Positions 44,235 through 56,200 of a DNA stretch of 64,000 nucleotides are shown here, piece after piece (position 1 is the stretch's first letter; each line of letters starts with the position of its first letter). Source of the stretch: Diploscapter coronatus (Eukaryota; Nematoda; Chromadorea; Rhabditida; Rhabditidae); assembly GCA_964036155.1 (NCBI GenBank), contig OZ038422.1, forward strand, positions 60,721,201-60,785,200, in the 5' to 3' direction. A model generated the notes under the pieces. The model saw only the letters and a list, made by a program, of their open reading frames with translations, was not told where the DNA came from and did no database searches. The position numbers were made by a program, and so were the translations under genes.

Positions 44235-47200
44235 TCATCGTTGTTTCAAGCAGACTTGGCATCGGGATACTCGGTCTTTCAGACCGCCGGCCTTCAGCGT
44301 TTGCGACATTGGCTTGCGGAATTGCTTGTCCTGGAAATATGTTTCTCAATCTCACATTATATTAGGCGATCAAATTTCGATGATTTTTCTACTTTCAACG
44401 ATAAAAATGTCGCGGAGAACGGGAAGTAGTGAAATGTGTTTTACTCAGACTCTCTCCCTCAAACTAATCCTCTCGTCTATCCCTAGCCATAAATTCTCCA
44501 TCATTTCACCAACTTTTTAGATTATCCTATTCTCAGCACTATCTTCCTTCCCAACACAAACCTGTTCAACGACGGCCATCCAGAATCCGTGATTGGTGGC
44601 GTAGTAGTTGCACGTGCCGCGGCCGTGGCACTCGATGAATGGTACGGCGCGGAAGTGCTCCATGCACGAGCCGGGCGATTGCAGATTCTGACCCGTTCCC
44701 TCACCGCCCGCAGCAGTGTGCTGAAGTAATTCATCATAGGGCTATATCATTTGGTTTGATAATAACTTTGACATCATCTTCTAGCCCACATATCATCCAT
44801 CCTTAATAAATCTAGTTTTGTGGGATTTATGGTTAAAAATTTCTTCTTCCTCATTGTTTTCGAAATAGAAAATCTCGTACCATGACGAACGAGTATCCTT
44901 GCCAGAGTGGGCTCCAGCCTTGTGGGCAGTTGGGGATGGAGGTGTCTTGCGAGTGAACTGCCATGATCTGAGTCGGAACCTCACACACTGCGCATCGCGA
45001 GATGTAGGGTCGGATCGCGGAGCCGGTCACCTAAATCAACTTATCATCTGGGCAGCTATTGTGGAGACACAAGAAACTATAAGTCCCTCCGTCCTCACTA
45101 ATTCGACCACATCTTTTATCTTGAATTGTGTGTCATTCTTATTTTATAATTTTATCGAAAAAGCTAACCGGATTCATCATGGGCGTCATCGGTTCTTCTG
45201 TCGATAGCCAGAATGAGTAGTCGGATCGGGACGCCACGTTGCACACCGAGTTGATGTTGCAGAACATGAACGGCATCGTATTGAACTTGGACAGACACGA
45301 GCCGGGCTGGCCTAAAAGTTGATTTTTAGTTAGATCAAATCAGGGGAAACATGAGCAACTCATCAGGAATGTGAATTGAGACAGGTCTTATCGCACTACT
45401 ATCTTTGCTACCAATACGCAGCTCTATGGTCATGGGATCAGCGTTCCGCTTTGATGCCACGATAACGCTTCTTCCCCTACAAAATCCAAACTTACCAAGA
45501 TCTTGTCCGCTTGACCGTCCGTTGCCTTGGACGTAGAGGAGCGAGTATCCAGTCCAGAGCGGCTGAGTTCCAGTGGGGCATTGCGGGACTTCGGTGGTCT
45601 GCGAGTGCTTCGTGAACGTGAAGCCACGGCTCGGCGCCCATCCACCAGGTCCTCCGGGGAATCATAAAATCTGATGGATTAGTACCGGAAATTTAGTTCC
45701 TGAGCAGAATGCTAATGATGAAGCTTGACGAAACGGCATCTTTTATTTTGCCATTTTTTACTTCTGACTATCGAATTGCACAATTCCATAATGTCCCATC
45801 CATCACTTAGTAGCTCTCAATCAGAAGGACAAAAATCAGCTGTCGCCGACTTTCTTGTTCTATAAAATCGCTGATCTTAAAAATCTAAATCACTTAACTG
45901 GCGGTCCATGGTTGCCTGCAGAGCCCACTCTTCCGGGGACGCCGACCGGTCGTGAAAATATTTAATTAGGAAGAAAGTTTAGTTCAATGACTTATCTGGT
46001 TCTCCCGTCATGCCGGCCAACCCAGGGGTGCCTTAAATTGGGTATAGATTTTGTTACTGCTTTAAGGATTCTATGAATCGGTTAAAAGATACCAGGAATT
46101 CCAGGTTGACCCTCGCGTCCCTAAACAGAATTTTATAAATCATTTGAAGAACTTGTATACAAGAACGCGAGAGCAAATTCTTGACGTCAAGATTCCCCTC
46201 AGGCGTCCTATGAGTCTCAAGAAACACTTACAGGAAGTCCAGCGAAACCTTCTTTGCCTGGTGGGCCCATTCGGCTTAAAAATAAACGATTAGGACCATA
46301 TTCTCTGGCGATTCGAATTATTTAAATCTTTCAAAATACTTATCTGGTTCGCCGGGCTCACCGGGATAGCCCTTTTCACCTTGGGGACCGGGGGGTCATG
46401 AAACGAAAATATTATCTAACTTTTTAAAAGTCTACAACTTTACCTGATATGCCCTCGGGATTGGGTTGATGAATTCCAGGCGGGGCGGGAGTGCCTTAAC
46501 AAGACGAATTAAGATCTGCTCATAACTCATGTCTAAAGTTTAAATTTACCAGGAAGGCCTTGATCACCAGGTTGACCCTAAATTTAAAAAAATGCATGAA
46601 GATCAGTTTTTTTTTTTTTTAAATAAAATGTCTACCCTATAACCGTCCAAACCGGGCAGACCGTCATCACCTCGCATTCCTTTTCTTCCAGGAGTTCCAG
46701 GCGTACCCTTAAACATTTGCTCAACTTTAGATTTCTAAAAAATCGTCTATTTAAAAAAGAAAAAATGCTCACGGGCAATCCATCGATACCACGGAGACCC
46801 TGAATTTGAAATTTAACTAGAAGAACACACATCTCAAAACTCTTACAACAGGGCCATCCTCGCCGCAGTCGCCTTCCAAGCCTGGCTGAAAGGAGAATAT
46901 TTAGATTGATAAAGCAATGCGTTTATGGATGAATACCGTTCCGGGCAGACCATCAGCTCCAGGGGCTCCTAAATTTAGATTATCAATGAATTAAAAAAAA
47001 ATATATATATATATAAAGGTTTGAAATCATTATTTAGGTTATATGATTAAAAATATTTACCTGGGGCTCCAGCAACACCCGATTGACCGTGTCCGTCCTG
47101 AAATGGAATAACTCTAGAACGTTCCTCAATTTAATTCGTACCTGTCCAGGTAATCCTGAAATGTTTGGTCGTAAATGAATATCATCATTTTGCAACTATG

Positions 47201-50200
47201 AAATGATGATATTCATTTATAACCTGGCAGGCCGTCGTCACCGCGTCCGCCATTCAATCCGGGAATTCTAAACATGTTAATTTGGCCTCCAAAAGATCGT
47301 AATTTCATCAGGAACTCACCCATCGGGGCCTTGAGGACCGTCAATTCCAGGCTCGCCGTTATCTCCCTGGAATATACAAATTACTATACTAGTATTTTTG
47401 GACCTAAAGTGTCGAATCTATGACCAGAAGACCTACCTTCTCGCCCGTAGGGCCAGGATAGCCCGTCAAGCCTTCGTTGCCCTTCATTCCCGGGAGTCCT
47501 GGCATGCTTAAAACTGGATGATGGTTATGATTGATTTTTAAAATAATTTTGCTTAAATTTTAACCAGTGGCAAGCAAAAGTTTGGAAAGTTTCTCGATCG
47601 AAATAATTTCCTTCGACCTAATAATCATTATTCAATTAATCTAACTTTTAGCATAATGACATGATAGCATATGCTCAGCTGGTGTACAGAGTTTCAGAAG
47701 AATCATACATATGAAAGTAACTGAAACATGAATGAAAAAATTATGTACATTTCTAAACCTTTGCACTCCACTGTTTCACAAATATATCATAATAGATTTA
47801 AGACTTATCAGGCTGGCCCGGATAACCGTTAATTCCCGCATCGCCAGGCATTCCACGCTCGCCATTCTCACCATTCCTGCCTGGTGGGCCCTAGATTTTA
47901 GAAGTAGTAAGAAGGGATCTAGTTTATCGAAGTCTTACCTGAAGTCCAGGGAGACCGTCTCTGCCCTAAAATTTAATTCAATTAGCTAAGTTTGGTTTAA
48001 AGTGAAGAAAAATAATTTACGGTTGGTCCATCGTCACCGCAGTCGCCTAAAATTGTAAGAATTATTTAGCTAACGATAAGAGCTACAGGAAATTACCTTC
48101 GGGACCTGGATCACCCGCCATCCCAGGGGGTCTTAAAATAGGATCAATATTATTTCAATTGAATTTTCGTCTATAAATTTATTATTTTAAAACGCTAGGA
48201 GCTTATCTGGCATTCCGGGCTCGCCGAATTCACCATCCAAGCCAGGCAGGCCGTTCGGTCCGTCCTCACCACACTCGCCCTCGACTCCAGGAATTCCGTT
48301 TTCACCCGATCCACCGTTCAATCTGCAAATAAAATGCATTGGATCTTAAGTAGGAATTTTAAACCTAAAATATTTCAATATTTTCACTTTTATAGTTCGC
48401 TTGAAAGATGCATGGTTTCACATTCCTGAACGAACGGAAGCTATCGGGAATCACTATGAAAAGGTGAAACCTTGCAATCATACAATATTTTAAAAGAGTC
48501 CCTTTACAAATTACGACATTTCAGATTAAATACTATAATTATTACCCAGGGAAACCGATCGTGCCATCCTCGCCGTTCAAGCCTGGCTGACCCTAAAATC
48601 AATTAACATTGAAAAGATGTCCTTCCTTTTTAATTTCAGAGTAGAAGAGAAATCATACGTCGGGTCCTGGAAGACCGTCTCTACCGTCATAGCCTTAAAT
48701 TAAGTTTATTAAGTTCTGGATTTGATCAATTCCCGCAAACCTGGTTCACCCGGCATTCCATTCGAACCCGGAGTTCCTAAGATAAACATTGTTTGTAAAT
48801 TAAACCTTAAACCAAAAACCTGGCAATCCCATTCTTCCAGGCTCGCCGTCTCTACCCGGAAAACCATCGTCACCTCGTTGTCCCTGAATTTCGATCGTTT
48901 CTGGGGCTCAGAAAACAAATTAATGCGCCTAAGAATGGTAGCTCTGGGATATTTGTATCAAACTACTAGGAAGATATTCTTTCATTATTGGTACAAATCT
49001 CGCTTAGCCCCACTAGAGTTCTCATTTTAAAAGCAATTTGGCAACAAATTACGATTGAAGACTAAAGCTATCCACTTTCAATAAACCCACCGGAAGTCCA
49101 GGCAGTCCGCCCAAACCGACGGCTCCGTCCTCGCCACACTCGCCGTCCTGTCCATTGAATCCGACGTCACCTTGCGGGCCTGGTAGGCCGGGCTCACCCA
49201 TGAGTCCTGGGAATCTTAAAATTGTTAGGATTAGCGTTAGAACTATAATTGATGAAAATCATAGGCGTGAGGTTCTCTATTTCGATTTCCATTCATTTTG
49301 AAAAGCCCTATAAGTTCGCCCGCCCCTGATTTAGCATGCTAATCACGAAAATCCTTATCTGGCAGTCCATCCATGCCGCGTTCGCCTGCCGCACCCGGAT
49401 ATCCATCTTGGCCAGGCTAAATTGGCATGGTAATTTTACTTACTTTAGTACTAAAATGTTATTTAAGTTTGATGAATCCTCAGTTTTTTGCACACTTAAT
49501 CAGTTAAAAATTTATAAACACAAGTCCACGAACCGTTCCCGGTGCTCCTCGAGGTCCAATTGGGCCTTGGAAGCCCTTGGGACCCATTCGTCCTGGTATA
49601 CCTAAATTAAGAAGTAGATTTTATATTAGAGCTTAAACGTAGTAAAAATAGTCTTTTTCCAAAGAAAAATTTTACCTGGCGGACCAGGTGGATTCTTCTC
49701 GATGTTGAATGGCCGTTGACCATCAGGGCCCGGAGGACCTTAAATTATCGACTTGTTTGAGTCTATAGTAAAATTGTTACCTCTCTGACCCGGCAGACCT
49801 ATAATTGAATTCATAGTCGATTTAAATTTAGTTAAAAATAAAATTTAAATCGACTATGAATTCGCACCTGGAAGACCGTCATCTCCTCGCATTCCTCTTC
49901 CTCCCTAAAATTAAATAATTAGACTTTTTCAAATTATATTTTATCAGATCAAACAAATCAATTAAAACTCACTGGTATGCCAGGTTGTCCAGGAATCGAG
50001 TCACCAACGGGTCCGGGAATACCCTGAATTAAGATATCTTCATCCTATTTTTCCTTCAAACTATACCGGCATTCCTAGCATGCCATCGCGACCTCGCTTG
50101 CCGTCGATACCAGGAAGTCCCTTCTCGCCTCGGTAACCAGGCAAGCCGTCCGGACCTTAGTTTTTTTAATTGAAAAAATTTTAAGCCTTGAGGTTTTACC

Positions 50201-53200
50201 TGGTGGACCCTGCAAACCTGGCATTCCATCTCGACCTGGGCCTCTTAAAATATATCAATATCTTCAGGATTTATGAGTTTGACGAAGAAAATATTGGCTT
50301 GATCGATAATTTCTGGTACATTTTGGCATTAGAATAGCAAAAAATTTCAACAATTATCTTTCAAACCGATGTTCTTTCTAAAATATGATCGAGATAGTCC
50401 TTATCTGGATATCCCGGCTCTCCTCTACCGCCTTTCTCTCCACTGATTCCAGCTGGATTCTCCATCGGACCGACGACCTCGCCAGGCTCACCCTTCAGGC
50501 CTTGGTATCTTAAAATTAGGCAGATAGCTTTGATTTATTGTCATTTAGAACTGTGCGCAGTAGTATTAAAATATATTGGGCTGCACACAATTCATATAAT
50601 CATAAAAAATCCTTATCTGGGATTCCGGGGAGGCCTGGGGATCTTAAAATTGAATGATGAGTAGGGTGTTTTGTTGACTTAAGAATCATCACTTTTAGAG
50701 GCTATGAGTAAATAAAACGAAATCTACGATTTTTAGCCTCTAAAAGTGCTCTGAATGGGCTTGAAACTTATCTGGCAAACCAGGAGGACCCTCCAAGCCC
50801 GGTTGTCCTGGAATTCCGTTCGGACCACAATCGCCTAAATAGGATTGATGTTTTGAATCAAATAGAGAAGAGCTTTTGACAAATTTTCGACACAAAGCGA
50901 GAATGTGAAGATCAGCTTATAAAATCGTTAAATCACACGAATTTGTTTACCAGAATCGCCATCCGGGCCTGGCGGACCTTTGTACCCATCGGGACTAAAA
51001 TTTGTTGTCTTTAGATCTTCTAATTCGCGTCAATGTTACCCAGGGCTTCCCGCGTCACCCACGGCTCCTGGCAGGCCATCTGGACAATAGCCACAGTCGT
51101 CACCTCTCGGGCCAATGTCGCCGGGGGCGCCTAAGACAAAACTATGCGTGTGTGTGTGTGTGATTTACTTGATTTGATGTAAGGTTTCAATCTAAACATG
51201 ATCGTCATCATTTAGTTTTACTAGAAAAAAAACGCAGCTGAGTATATCAGTGCGGGGAAGTTTATTGTCATTAAAATTTTTCCTAGGCCATTATAATATT
51301 TAAATAATTTTCATCGTTTTTTTTTTACCAGGGATTCCATCGATACCAATTCGACCTGGTTCGCCGGGTTCACCCTTAAATAATTCGTTTAAACTAGACG
51401 AGGAGACAAAACATACGGGCAGGCCAGACAAGCCATCGGGACCTTGTTTCTGCGTCGCGGCAGTTCCGGGGAATCTTGATAAAAAAAACATTAGTTAAAG
51501 CTAAATTGACGAGTTAGATCAAATTTACCCTTTAGCGCCGCTTGGGCCAGGGTCTCCGATCATTCCCTGAATTTTTAAGTGGTGATTTTTTTTAAAAAAA
51601 AAAACCAAATATATTAAAAATTCATTGTCAAACTCACAGGCTGACCCGGAAATCCGTCCTTTCCACTCTAAAATAAGTTATTTTTGTTCTAAATCTATGA
51701 AATTTTAATTACCTGGCCATCAGCGCCTGGAGGGCCTTGGATATCGTAGCCAGGAAGGCCCTAAAGTTAATTTTTAGATTCCTTTAAAGACTTATCAAAT
51801 CATACAAGCTCTCCATCAGGACCACAGTCACCATCTTCTCCGGGAATTCCAGGTTCGCTTAAAACTTTCAGGTCATTTTTAGGTTTAAAACCGTTCAAAT
51901 TTCATAAAGTATGCTCGAGTCTGGCTTTAAGCGCAATTTTTGACCTTGAAAATTTGGTAGAAACTTATCTGCGAATCCGGGGTGGCCATCATCACCTCTT
52001 TCACCCTTCTGCGAGTAGCCGGGCAATCCATCCAAACCTGGTGGGCCTGGCATGCCTGAATTTTCACTGATTAGACCGTGAAGTTCATCAAATTTGGTCA
52101 TATTTGAACTAGAGAGAATACTTCAGCAGCGCTAGGTAAAATAATAGTTGAAATGTTTGCCTGGAGGTCCGGGAGGTCTGTAATTTAGATATTTAGAGGT
52201 TAAATGTGATGCGTTAAGTTACCCTCTGGGTCCCATCGCACCGTGGAAACCGTCTTTGCCTACAATTTTGAGGTGAGTACTTGAGATCGGAGTTCAATTC
52301 AAGCAGATTCAGCCACCAACCTGCTTCACCCTTGGGACCAGGAGCCCCATCGAATCCTTGAGTTCCTCTGGGACCAAGCTCGCCTTTGCCCTCGCCGAAT
52401 GGGCCCTGCTCACCGCAGTCACCTTCCAAACCCTGCAAGAAGTTAAATTCACATGAATAGGCTTCTCAGATATAAGAGTTTATCTAAGGCTTGTACCATC
52501 AAGACCTGGGCTTAAAATCTTCATGCCTGGACTTGAACTTGTAAGTCCAATCCTAATCTCTTAGGCGTACAAGCCAGGTTCAGAAATTGAAAATTTAGGT
52601 CTTGGCACAAGTATTGTCTATCTATCAAAGTATAAATTGATATCAGTACTGGATCAAGACTTAGTTTTTAAATGTCAGATTTCCGAACTTCATCCAGGCC
52701 AGATAGTCCAAAGATTTACTTACTTGGGGACCATCATAGCCAGGTTCACCCGCAGCTCCTTTCACTCCTGGAATTCCAGGAACACCGGACAAGCCTAAAA
52801 CGAGACGATTCTTTTGTTGAAATAAAAATGTGAAATCAGATTTAAAAAAATATATATTTCTGAAAACTTATCTGGTTCTCCTTGGTCACCCTTGGGTCCG
52901 AAACTTCCTGACAGACCGTCCTTGCCGCGTTTGCCTCTTTCACCCGCGTCTCCCGGATCTCCCTTCTGGCTAAAATCGTTTTTTAGGTAAAAAGTAAGTG
53001 GACTTTGCAAAAGATTTAGGCTTGTCACGATTTTGAAGCTAACGAAATTTGATGCTTGGCTTCGAGATAAAATAAATGCTATCTTTGCGTAATATTTTTT
53101 TCGAATCATGAAAACCCCAATTTTCGACTTCATCATCAAACTCACCCTTTAATTCCTGGATAACCCGGTTGGCCGTCGACGCTTAAAATTTAACATTACT

Positions 53201-56200
53201 AAGGGCTTTTTTAGATATGAAATTCTGCGTTTCTTAGCTCATCAGAAAGATCACCTTCGTGATATTATAATTTAAAAAATGCATATCTGGTAAGCCTGGT
53301 GGTCCAGTCGCTCCGTCCCTGCCTTTCTCTCCCTTGACGCCTAAATTAAATTGTTTTTGAGGCTTTTTTAATATAAAAAAAAACCTCCATCTCCGGGTGG
53401 ACCTTGAAGAACTTGCGTCTCGCGTCCGCGCTGCTCCCATTTCCGGTCGTCGTAACCTGGGTCGCCTAAAACCGAGAATTCAATACTGTTTTAATTGAGA
53501 AAAAGTTGGTCTTCACGAAAAATGGCGAAGATCAATCTTCAATTAAAATGAATTGATTGGTAGTTATTTTTAGATCTCGAATTCGGAGTTAGTTTTGGCA
53601 TTTTGAATACGAATTTAGAACTTATCTGGTGGACCCATCGGACCCTGAAATTTATGCAATTTAGTTCAATTTATTTAAACAACTACTTACAGGAAGTCCC
53701 TTTTCTCCCTTCATACCGGGAGTGCGCACGCCCATTCGACCTTTCTCACCAGGGGGACCTCAAAATCAAATTTCTGGGGCGGTTCTAAATTTGAAACGAA
53801 TACCAGGAAATCCGGGCGGACCAAGCGGTCCATTGTCACCCTTTGCTCTGAAAAGCAAGCAATTATGCCATGGTTCATCGTTAGAAACGTTTAAACTCAC
53901 CCCTTCAAGCCGCTTTGACCAGGAATACCCGGTTGTCCCTTAAATTAACGATAATTAGATGATTTTTAAGGGTTTGAGGATGCATAATCTAATAAGAAGT
54001 TAGTCTTATGTTTCGGAATTTATTTTTATCGAAAAATTTCGCGTACAGGAATTCCATCTTGGCCTGGGTCACCCTGAGAGCCCTTAATTCCTGGCGAATT
54101 CTGGCCTCCGACACCGGGGTCTCCTCTGGAAATTGGTTTTTATCTAAATTTTCTATAATTGGAGCAAACCTAGGTCCTTTGTATCCGGGGTTTCCGGGTG
54201 GGCCTGGGGGTCGTGAAACGAAATCATTAATTTGACAATGAATAATTTAAGTGAGGTTTTTAACTTTTAGATAAAAGATGACTGGCTTTTTTGTCATAAT
54301 AAGATGTGGAGAAATTATTATTAAGAGTTTTTCGTGTTTACTTTTTTAATTAAAATTTTTAAAAACACTTCTTTCAGAATAGCTTGAATAACTCATCTGG
54401 AGGGCCTGCCAACCCGGGCAAGCCGGGCATTCCCTGAAATTTATTTGTTAAAAATATACGATTTTTAATCGATATATAGATTTTTTTGTTTAACTTAGGT
54501 TATTTAGTTTGAATTTTGAAATAAGCTCACAAGACAGAAATCTATCAAATTGAGAATATTTAGTTCTTTATATTTGCAAATTTGCTTAGCTTATGTCCTC
54601 TAAATCAAAGCACATAATTATCCGCTCGATGCTGACTCATTATTAGTTCATTCTTCCTCTCGCTCTTAAGCATCCCTTGGATTGTTACAATGTGCAGAGA
54701 ACGAGAAAAATTAAAGAATGGAGCTCTTTGGATAAAGAGGGGCTGTAACACCTCTGAATGCCTGAGAAAAAAGTTTTGGAAGCTAGGGAAAAAGTGGGTC
54801 AATATGTGCCAGGAACACTGTTTCGACGTTGATCTCGAAGGTTTGAGTGCCATTAAATCATTATTTCTCGCCTCTCATTAGAGTGCAGCTTCTTGCAACA
54901 ATCGGTCGAAAGCTTTGATAAAAAGCCAGAGATTAATCGATAAGCAGAAAAAATAGAGGATTTATGAGCCAGGCAATATTATTTCAAGCTAATGATAATG
55001 CATATGGTAAGGATTGAAGATCAAGAGTTGGTGATTCTAAGTAAAAAATCGATAAAAATATTTTTTTTTCAGAATTTAGTCAACTCACATCGGTTCCATT
55101 ACAACCGGGGATACCTTCTTCGCCCTAAAATTAAATAATTCGAGTTTATTTTGAATTACAGAAGAAGTCTTTCAAGGGCCTTGCCTTCAATCCGGGTAAT
55201 CCGTCAAGTCCTGAAATTTAATAGATGATTTTTAACTCCTTGATAAATTGAAAACAAACAAATGGAAAATCAACTTATCTGGGAGACCAGGATGTCCAGG
55301 GGAGCTTAAAACAATATTATTAGATTTATAGAGCACTTAAAGATGACCTTCAATTGAAAGGAGTTTTTAAAAAATACATTTTCGCCCTTCAATCAAAGCT
55401 CAAAAATCAAATTGTAAGGCTTATCTGGAAGTCCGCGATCTCCACGCACTCCTTTCGGGCCCATATCACCGAAATCACCTTCCGCACCCTAAATTAGTAG
55501 TTAAATTAGAGTAATAATCCTTATTGTTAGATAAATTTACAGTCATTCCAGCGGCGCCAGGATTGCCTTCTGGGCCATCTTCACCTGGGGCACCTAAATT
55601 TGGGTACTTTATTTGAATGACCAGAGAGGATAGGTCAATTAGAGCATGTGTGGAAGATTGCTTCGAAATATGACTGTCTTAGGTGATATTTTGGGTTCGA
55701 AGATTTAAATTGTGTTATGATCTGTTGTAGATGATCCGCAGTTTTTACCTGGATGACCCATTTCACCGGGAAAACCTTGACCGCCCTAAAAAATAGAGAT
55801 TTTATTGATTCAGAGCTCAATAATTATCTTACCCGTTCTCCTTTCGTTCCGGGACAAACACATGGCGGCGCACAACCTTTGCAAGCGACCGCTGCATCGG
55901 CGAACCTTCTGGAATAATGATTTCTTCTTTTCGTAAAATCTATTGCAGTATAAAAGTGACTTTTGGATTAATTAACTCGGAATAAGATGGGAATTTCCTT
56001 TTGTTTAAATGGTACTTCTTTCAGCAGAATTGATCCTGAAGTGTAATTTTTCTAGATGTGTTGGCAGTGAAAGAAAAAGCTACTGAACTACCAATACTCC
56101 TTACTCTTGCTGTAGCTATAGATGATCAATATGATTGCAGAAATGATAATGAAATATCTTAGATCCAACTCAAAGAGCAATCCTGCATCCAGAACAAGGC

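Follow-up and report, generated by a model that had tools for sequence, protein, structure and literature searches.

The first and last bases of an intron meet in the second step of splicing, a contact credited to the work of Parker and Siliciano (see PMC4299874 and PMC6461851) that has been probed with mutants, and introns of the major (U2-type) spliceosome with AT-AC ends (AT-AC II) are known together with the A-C rule. Here we describe introns with non-canonical ends in two collagen IV genes of the nematode Diploscapter coronatus, 17 of them in an alpha1(IV)-like gene within the 64,000-nucleotide stretch of contig OZ038422.1 that was analyzed (the window) and 14 in a second gene; together they comprise 19 AT-AA, four AT-AG, three AT-AC, four GT-AT, and one TT-AT intron. 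The GT (or GC)...AG ends of U2-type introns are found in none of the 31, and we call them a U2-type variant because exceptions such as U2-type AT-AC introns are known. Like AT-AC II introns, the prevailing forms combine A at the first position (+1) with an altered last base and a U2-like donor, and compensation in the second step may be common to both; unlike AT-AC II introns, they show A...A in 19 cases versus A...C in three, they are accompanied by A...G, G...T, and T...T pairs, and they are gathered, 31 in number, in two genes.

Among the systems compared, the copepod Eurytemora comes closest (PMC7072748, PMC5714493). The account of Eurytemora affinis by Robertson (2017) describes GA and GG donors, changes at +2, and acceptors that are not greatly different, in 10-12% of the introns of sampled genes and likely genome-wide (PMC5714493). 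Both systems have intron-rich genes in which exons end in an obligate AG, together with a canonical U1 and a single exempt donor base; in our case, however, the change affects +1 jointly with the last base, and the other genes sampled yielded no such introns. A Eurytemora-type GA-AG reading of our introns was rejected, since their ends are AT-AA, AT-AG, AT-AC, GT-AT, and TT-AT and GA-AG would lose one base and shift the frame. In Fritillaria borealis, varied ends are reportedly processed by the U2 spliceosome after loss of U12 (PMC13326754), which resembles our case; here, by contrast, AT-AA ends are found in two genes. Minor (U12-type) AT-AA introns have the same terminal dinucleotides (PMC10639083), but the donor and the branch-like site differ here and no U12 match was found among the candidates scored. 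Among the papers listed in full-text literature searches, most of them seen as titles and abstract openings, none was recognizable as describing nematode AT-AA introns of the U2 type; a U2-type AT-AA set concentrated in collagen IV appears to be new, AT-AA itself being known from U12-type introns.

Intron ends in the two collagen IV genes

Two large contigs of 87.7 and 82.0 Mb make up the genome, with about 13 kb besides, and the window gene, at about 95% identity between them, recurs collinearly on both, as do several other loci. For this species a diploid assembly of 170 Mbp with 2n=2 and 5.7% heterozygosity has been described, along with 140 million RNA-seq reads (PMC5483258). The modelled part of the window gene (44235..55847, minus strand) starts at 55847 and runs to the stop codon, the upstream 5' end lying outside the model; its 1399-amino-acid frame stays open across all 72 introns and ends in an NC1 domain (Pfam C4, 1.4e-87) that is nearer to alpha1 than to alpha2 in the PDB (369 versus 303 bits; alpha1 and alpha5 chains at 64-65%). 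The 72 introns divide into 53 GT-AG, two GC-AG, ten AT-AA, three AT-AG, two AT-AC, one GT-AT, and one TT-AT, so that 17 are neither GT-AG nor GC-AG.

An earlier note on this DNA had placed ten AT-AA introns here, with starts of ATAAG or ATATG and ends of TTTTAA, and had argued that the Gly-X-Y repeat permits only one join for each. The intron ends and the glycine-restoring joins of the ten are confirmed. The introns lie on the minus strand at 55306..55424, 53183..53286, 51859..51968, 50644..50771, 50510..50616, 50245..50404, 49216..49358, 48133..48206, 47508..47808, and 46276..46343; all ten end in TTTTAA, nine start with ATAAG and the one at 53183..53286 with ATATG, every join gives GGC or GGA in frame, and an intron shifted by one base to TA-AG would put GAC or GAA in place of glycine. 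Each is supported by the join check, by the other allele, and by a dynamic programme (DP); in addition, folding shows a perfect 15-bp internal hairpin in 50644..50771 and an internal hairpin in 50510..50616. The claim of a single possible join fared less well, as register-keeping canonical pairs are absent within the scanned range for five of the ten and present for the other five.

What the earlier note overlooked were seven further non-canonical introns of the same gene and strand, as well as the second collagen IV gene, so that AT-AA is the commonest end type among several. The AT-AG introns lie at 55211..55278 and 52795..52871 (DP and allele; the donor of the latter reads ATGAG on the other allele) and at 53466..53625 (DP, curated model, and allele). 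AT-AC introns were found at 54213..54396 (ATGAG...TTTCAC; DP and allele), where an AG 9 nucleotides downstream would also preserve the frame, and at 45952..45995, 44 nucleotides long and devoid of predicted structure (DP, allele, and folding). Writing the exon boundary as a slash, the GT-AT intron at 46398..46443 reads GTAAAG...TTTCAT/GA (curated model and allele; join slidable by one base) and the TT-AT intron at 45664..45897 reads TTAAGT...TTTTAT/GA (DP and allele). All 17 joins restore a GG codon start; those of AT-AG and GT-AT introns can slide by one base and leave the mRNA unchanged, and those of AT-AA, AT-AC, and TT-AT introns cannot.

The DP scores the Gly-X-Y register, donor positions +2 to +6, and the acceptor bases before the last, and leaves the first and last intron base unscored. 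Run in this way, it gave exactly those ten AT-AA introns, the seven others (one fused to its neighbor), and nine spurious ones, which were eliminated by a penalty of 5 per non-G end; the gene scored 1117 when restricted to GT/GC-AG versus 1431 with that penalty. The model was finished by hand, by removing rows unsupported at higher penalty or by eye and by restoring small exons that the DP had merged.

The C-terminal domain of collagen IV occurs at two loci per chromosome (16 matches), and the second gene, on the minus strand at C1:18.454-18.482 Mb (C1 and C2 label the two chromosome sequences), was modelled roughly by DP. At penalty 5 it gave 16 non-canonical introns; two of these, 18457468 and 18455901, were of poor quality and were left out, 18468750 was taken in place of 18468883, and 14 remain (nine AT-AA, one AT-AG, one AT-AC, and three GT-AT). 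One of its AT-AA introns (C1:18459714-18464879) is 5166 nucleotides long, about ten times the next longest non-canonical intron of either gene (493 nucleotides), and a ten-base string of the second gene, CTAATGATTC, is found close to the end of four non-canonical introns out of 31, but in this place in no canonical intron among 106. A common origin across the two genes was considered for the non-canonical introns, but they share no position (GT-AG introns share three) in a Gly-X-Y alignment that is ambiguous.

Between the alleles of the window gene, terminal dinucleotides agree in all 72 modelled introns, while differences affect 449 of 7295 aligned intron bases (6.15%) and 131 of 4202 exon bases (3.1%). 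In the second gene, all ten non-canonical introns covered at both ends agree between chromosomes (rows 18464879, 18459677, 18456915, and 18454737 lie outside the part of the other chromosome that was compared), which makes 27 of 27 covered cases in both genes. At the intron rate, zero change in the 17 x 4 end bases of the window gene has a chance of 0.013, and of 0.001 if the second gene's ten introns, taken to diverge equally fast, are counted too. The ends thus agree despite the divergence of the introns, and sequencing error is therefore an unlikely cause of them, and the agreement suggests that they are maintained by selection. In intron 49090-48884, near 48913, the other allele carries about 4 kb of extra sequence.

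The two end bases vary together. Over both genes, 23 introns have neither end G, four have only the last base G, four have only the first base G, and 114 have G at both ends (p=9e-19), a covariation that bears out the coupling of first and last base invoked in the earlier note. Its description of the donors as U2-like apart from the first base also holds, as the 27 donors whose first base is A or T agree with the U1 complement at 8.89 of the ten positions besides +1, versus 6.32 for the 114 G...G introns (p=4e-13). All 31 non-canonical introns split a glycine codon after its first base, and all 31 are flanked by G on both sides, versus 76 of the 114 G...G introns (p=4e-5). A branch-like CTAAY site is present in 15 of the 31, 14 to 16 nucleotides from the intron end in 14 of these, and absent from the other 16; among canonical introns it occurs in 25 of 106 (p=0.013). 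Within the two genes, the octamer AGnTAAGT occurs 16 times in its A version and once in its G version, and in about 224 kb of sequence beyond them (both strands, duplicate loci included) AGATAAGT occurs at 11 A, 37 G, 4 C, and 4 T sites; no acceptor of the tested form lies within 500 nucleotides behind the ten unique A-version AGATAAGT sites listed outside the collagen IV genes. A repeat family as the source of the introns was rejected, because no match between introns exceeds 17 bases (30 of the 31 compared).

Spliceosome components and rival explanations

These features lead us to propose that the 31 are probably introns of the major (U2-type) spliceosome whose end bases compensate for each other, aided by strong pairing with U1. 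The terminal bases of genuine U2-type introns would have drifted from G...G, U1, by pairing almost fully with the remaining donor positions (CAG/nTAAGTTT), would still recognize the 5' site, and the second step would proceed where the last base has been altered to suit the first. The pairings would then be A with A (19), G (4), or C (3); G with G and sometimes T (4); and T with T (1), and the flanking exonic G's, together with CTAAY in about half of the introns, mostly 14 to 16 nucleotides from the end, may add strength. The AT-AG introns resemble the state that would precede a change of the last base, and the GT-AT introns suggest that the last base may also change alone. We infer the removal of the introns at these joins from the reading frame, and the step-by-step role of each compensation would likewise follow from the pattern of the ends. 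An interaction between the two terminal bases of the intron has been reported for the post-catalytic spliceosome (PMC6461851).

The unusual change in a small nuclear RNA or in PRP8 that the earlier note had suggested looking for did not turn up in a fitting form in the U1, U5, and U6 copies and the part of PRP-8 read. The search for U1 scored 42 of 2364 candidates, and the 5' ends were read in all 37 matches listed; 27 of these have the main 5' end AAACTTACCTG, four have GCACTTACCTG, one has AAACTTACCGT, and five have the divergent ends AAACTTACTTG (two), AAACTTACATG (one), and AAACTAACCTT (two). A U1 with U at position 8 (C8 to U), which would pair with A at +1, was sought and is not among the 37 matches listed. 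The divergent U1 genes form clusters at C1:33560995-33563004 and C2:31565593-31566759 (L044, L045), where one chromosome has three of them and its counterpart two. Of 47 U5 matches five were read, and the loop is GCCTTTTAC in each of these. A PRP-8 model of 2059 amino acids, which excludes the C-terminal part, aligns in one stretch (residues 21-2059) to chain 8ro0_A, presumably the C. elegans protein, and the alignment was inspected letter by letter to about residue 970.

The mature U6 core is canonical once its intron is removed. All four full-length U6 genes listed (L069, L070, L071, and L072, each at 1501-1657, from C2:73993324, C2:74187623, C1:79304777, and C1:79099896, respectively) carry a 54-nucleotide GT-AG intron within the catalytic ACAGAGA box, in the layout ACAGA/GTAAGTT...CTAATGAAAACCTTTGCAG/GAAG. 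Their exons are identical, the introns differ between chromosomes at 14 of 54 bases, the remaining three of seven U6 matches are truncated, and no intronless full-length U6 is among the matches listed (best 47 of 22019 candidates). Introns in U6 occur in fungi, and our literature search found none published for nematodes.

One could also imagine a private splice code of collagen IV, AG/nTAAGT...TTTnAn/G at a split glycine codon, in which the ends are free provided that they fit together and a dedicated factor reads the code. The real donor would thereby stand apart from any CCA-GGN that occurs in frame within the coding repeat, and the factor might be a divergent U1 gene or a U6 isoform from the intron-bearing genes. 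We judge this unlikely.

Several observations weigh against U2-type introns with compensating ends. Splicing was read from the DNA alone, and a generic coding model that lacks the Gly register placed four of the ten AT-AA introns exactly at low penalty, put four one base later (TTTTAAG), and missed two, and at higher penalty recovered one of ten; since this model mostly fails to recover them, the AA ends depend on the glycine constraint. The second gene model is rough (75 introns, one stop), spurious introns were discarded by hand ahead of counting, and the U1 check reaches only the 42 scored candidates. The four G-first introns that end in T fall outside the A...A pairing idea, and their joins can slide by one base. 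In Aspergillus telomerase RNA, A at +1 is reported to block or hinder the second splicing step (PMC4299874), and A...G pairs would therefore be expected to splice poorly. Nothing that we found explains why collagen IV has such introns and prp-8 does not.

A further point against compensating ends is that 12 of the 31 introns have at least one register-keeping, stop-free GT/GC-AG pair in the scanned range, among them the GT-AT intron 18456915, whose own GT donor keeps the register with an AG 18 or 27 nucleotides downstream. Canonical joins might then lie elsewhere, at an exonic GC or GT and at an AG in the next exon, at the cost of whole Gly-X-Y triplets. We consider this decidedly unlikely: 19 of the 31 introns, including 12 of the 19 AT-AA introns, have no such pair in the scanned range, the candidate donors are mostly GC sites inside exons with a few GT, in poor contexts, and the ATAAGT...TTTTAA signals, whose ends are kept on both alleles where read, would be left unexplained.

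Quite improbable, too, is A-to-I editing, which would turn AT...AA into IT...AI, to be read as GT...AG before splicing. It would suit the commonest changes, which are A for G at both ends, and the strong hairpins that some introns hold, such as that in intron 50771-50644 (z = -5.8 against shuffles). Eight of the 31 introns, with C or T ends (AT-AC, GT-AT, and TT-AT), are beyond such repair, and secondary structure is not a common feature of the non-canonical introns: among the 11 of 17 window introns folded, z falls below -2.5 in three and ranges from -1.6 to +1.3 in the others, with one structureless, and neither the first nor the last intron base is paired in any of the 11 minimum-energy folds. 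Long inverted repeats are held by introns 49867-49799 and 50771-50644.

The remaining explanations are all highly improbable. The consensus of U12-type introns consists of the donor RTATCCTT and the branch site TTCCTTAAC. A U12-type origin could appeal to AT-AA as the top non-canonical minor subtype on record (PMC10639083), but the donors here read ATAAGT and none among those listed reads ATATCC, no U12 snRNA matched the genome at E<=10 (best 42 of 17451 candidates, in a search limited to U12 among minor snRNAs), and the minor spliceosome is reported lost in nematodes (PMC10639083, PMC13326754). Non-conventional introns of the euglenid kind, removed independently of the spliceosome through pairing of their termini, would fit the inverted repeats within several introns, yet the end bases are unpaired in each of the 11 introns folded, some introns have little or no structure, and U1-like donors are stronger and branch-like sites commoner than in canonical introns. 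Decay or misassembly of the collagen genes might account for odd ends concentrated in one gene class, but two genes are affected, the two chromosomes agree in the ends where read, and the window gene has an open frame with 3.1% exon versus 6.2% intron divergence.

Distribution and meaning of the introns

Outside collagen IV, no non-canonical intron was accepted in prp-8 (GT/GC-AG model of 45 introns, checked by alignment to 8ro0_A), by a method whose sensitivity is limited. That alignment revealed two spurious mini-exons in the GT/GC-AG-only model; with ends unscored, the gene gave 80 introns, many of them spurious, while a low penalty left one odd intron and a higher one none. Two laminin-like pieces, roughly modelled with 14 and 13 introns and with one stop in the first, yielded no accepted non-canonical intron either, an ATAAG...CAG alternative in the first piece appearing at low penalty and disappearing at higher; this zero is weak evidence because the generic method recovered only four and then one of the ten AT-AA introns. 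Against 70 comparison introns, a number that was put in manually, the 31 of collagen IV stand out with p=2e-6.

Across the genome, the pattern CAGATAAGN{90,120}TTTTAAG occurs at 28 places versus 87 for a backward control, so that no excess is seen. Ten of the 28 were examined; nine belong to the window gene, both of its alleles counted, as eight AT-AA introns and one chance pairing with the donor at 45995, and one further place lies elsewhere in the window. The pattern samples one length class and the control differs in dinucleotide content, and the scan therefore makes an extensive class less likely but says little about isolated cases; a stricter pattern gave zero places and zero in its control and is hence uninformative. 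Overall, the non-canonical introns appear to be few and to be enriched in collagen IV, and may also occur singly elsewhere. In the D. coronatus genome paper, atac is the sole extra hinted splice site named for the Augustus run (PMC5483258); gene models based on GT-AG will miss or distort these collagen genes.

These introns provide a natural test of how the first and last letters of an intron cooperate. In a single animal, and within two genes, evolution has seemingly run the end-base experiment about thirty times, A...A being the favored substitute for G...G. A strong donor is the apparent price of changed ends, and the introns offer a testable set of substrates.

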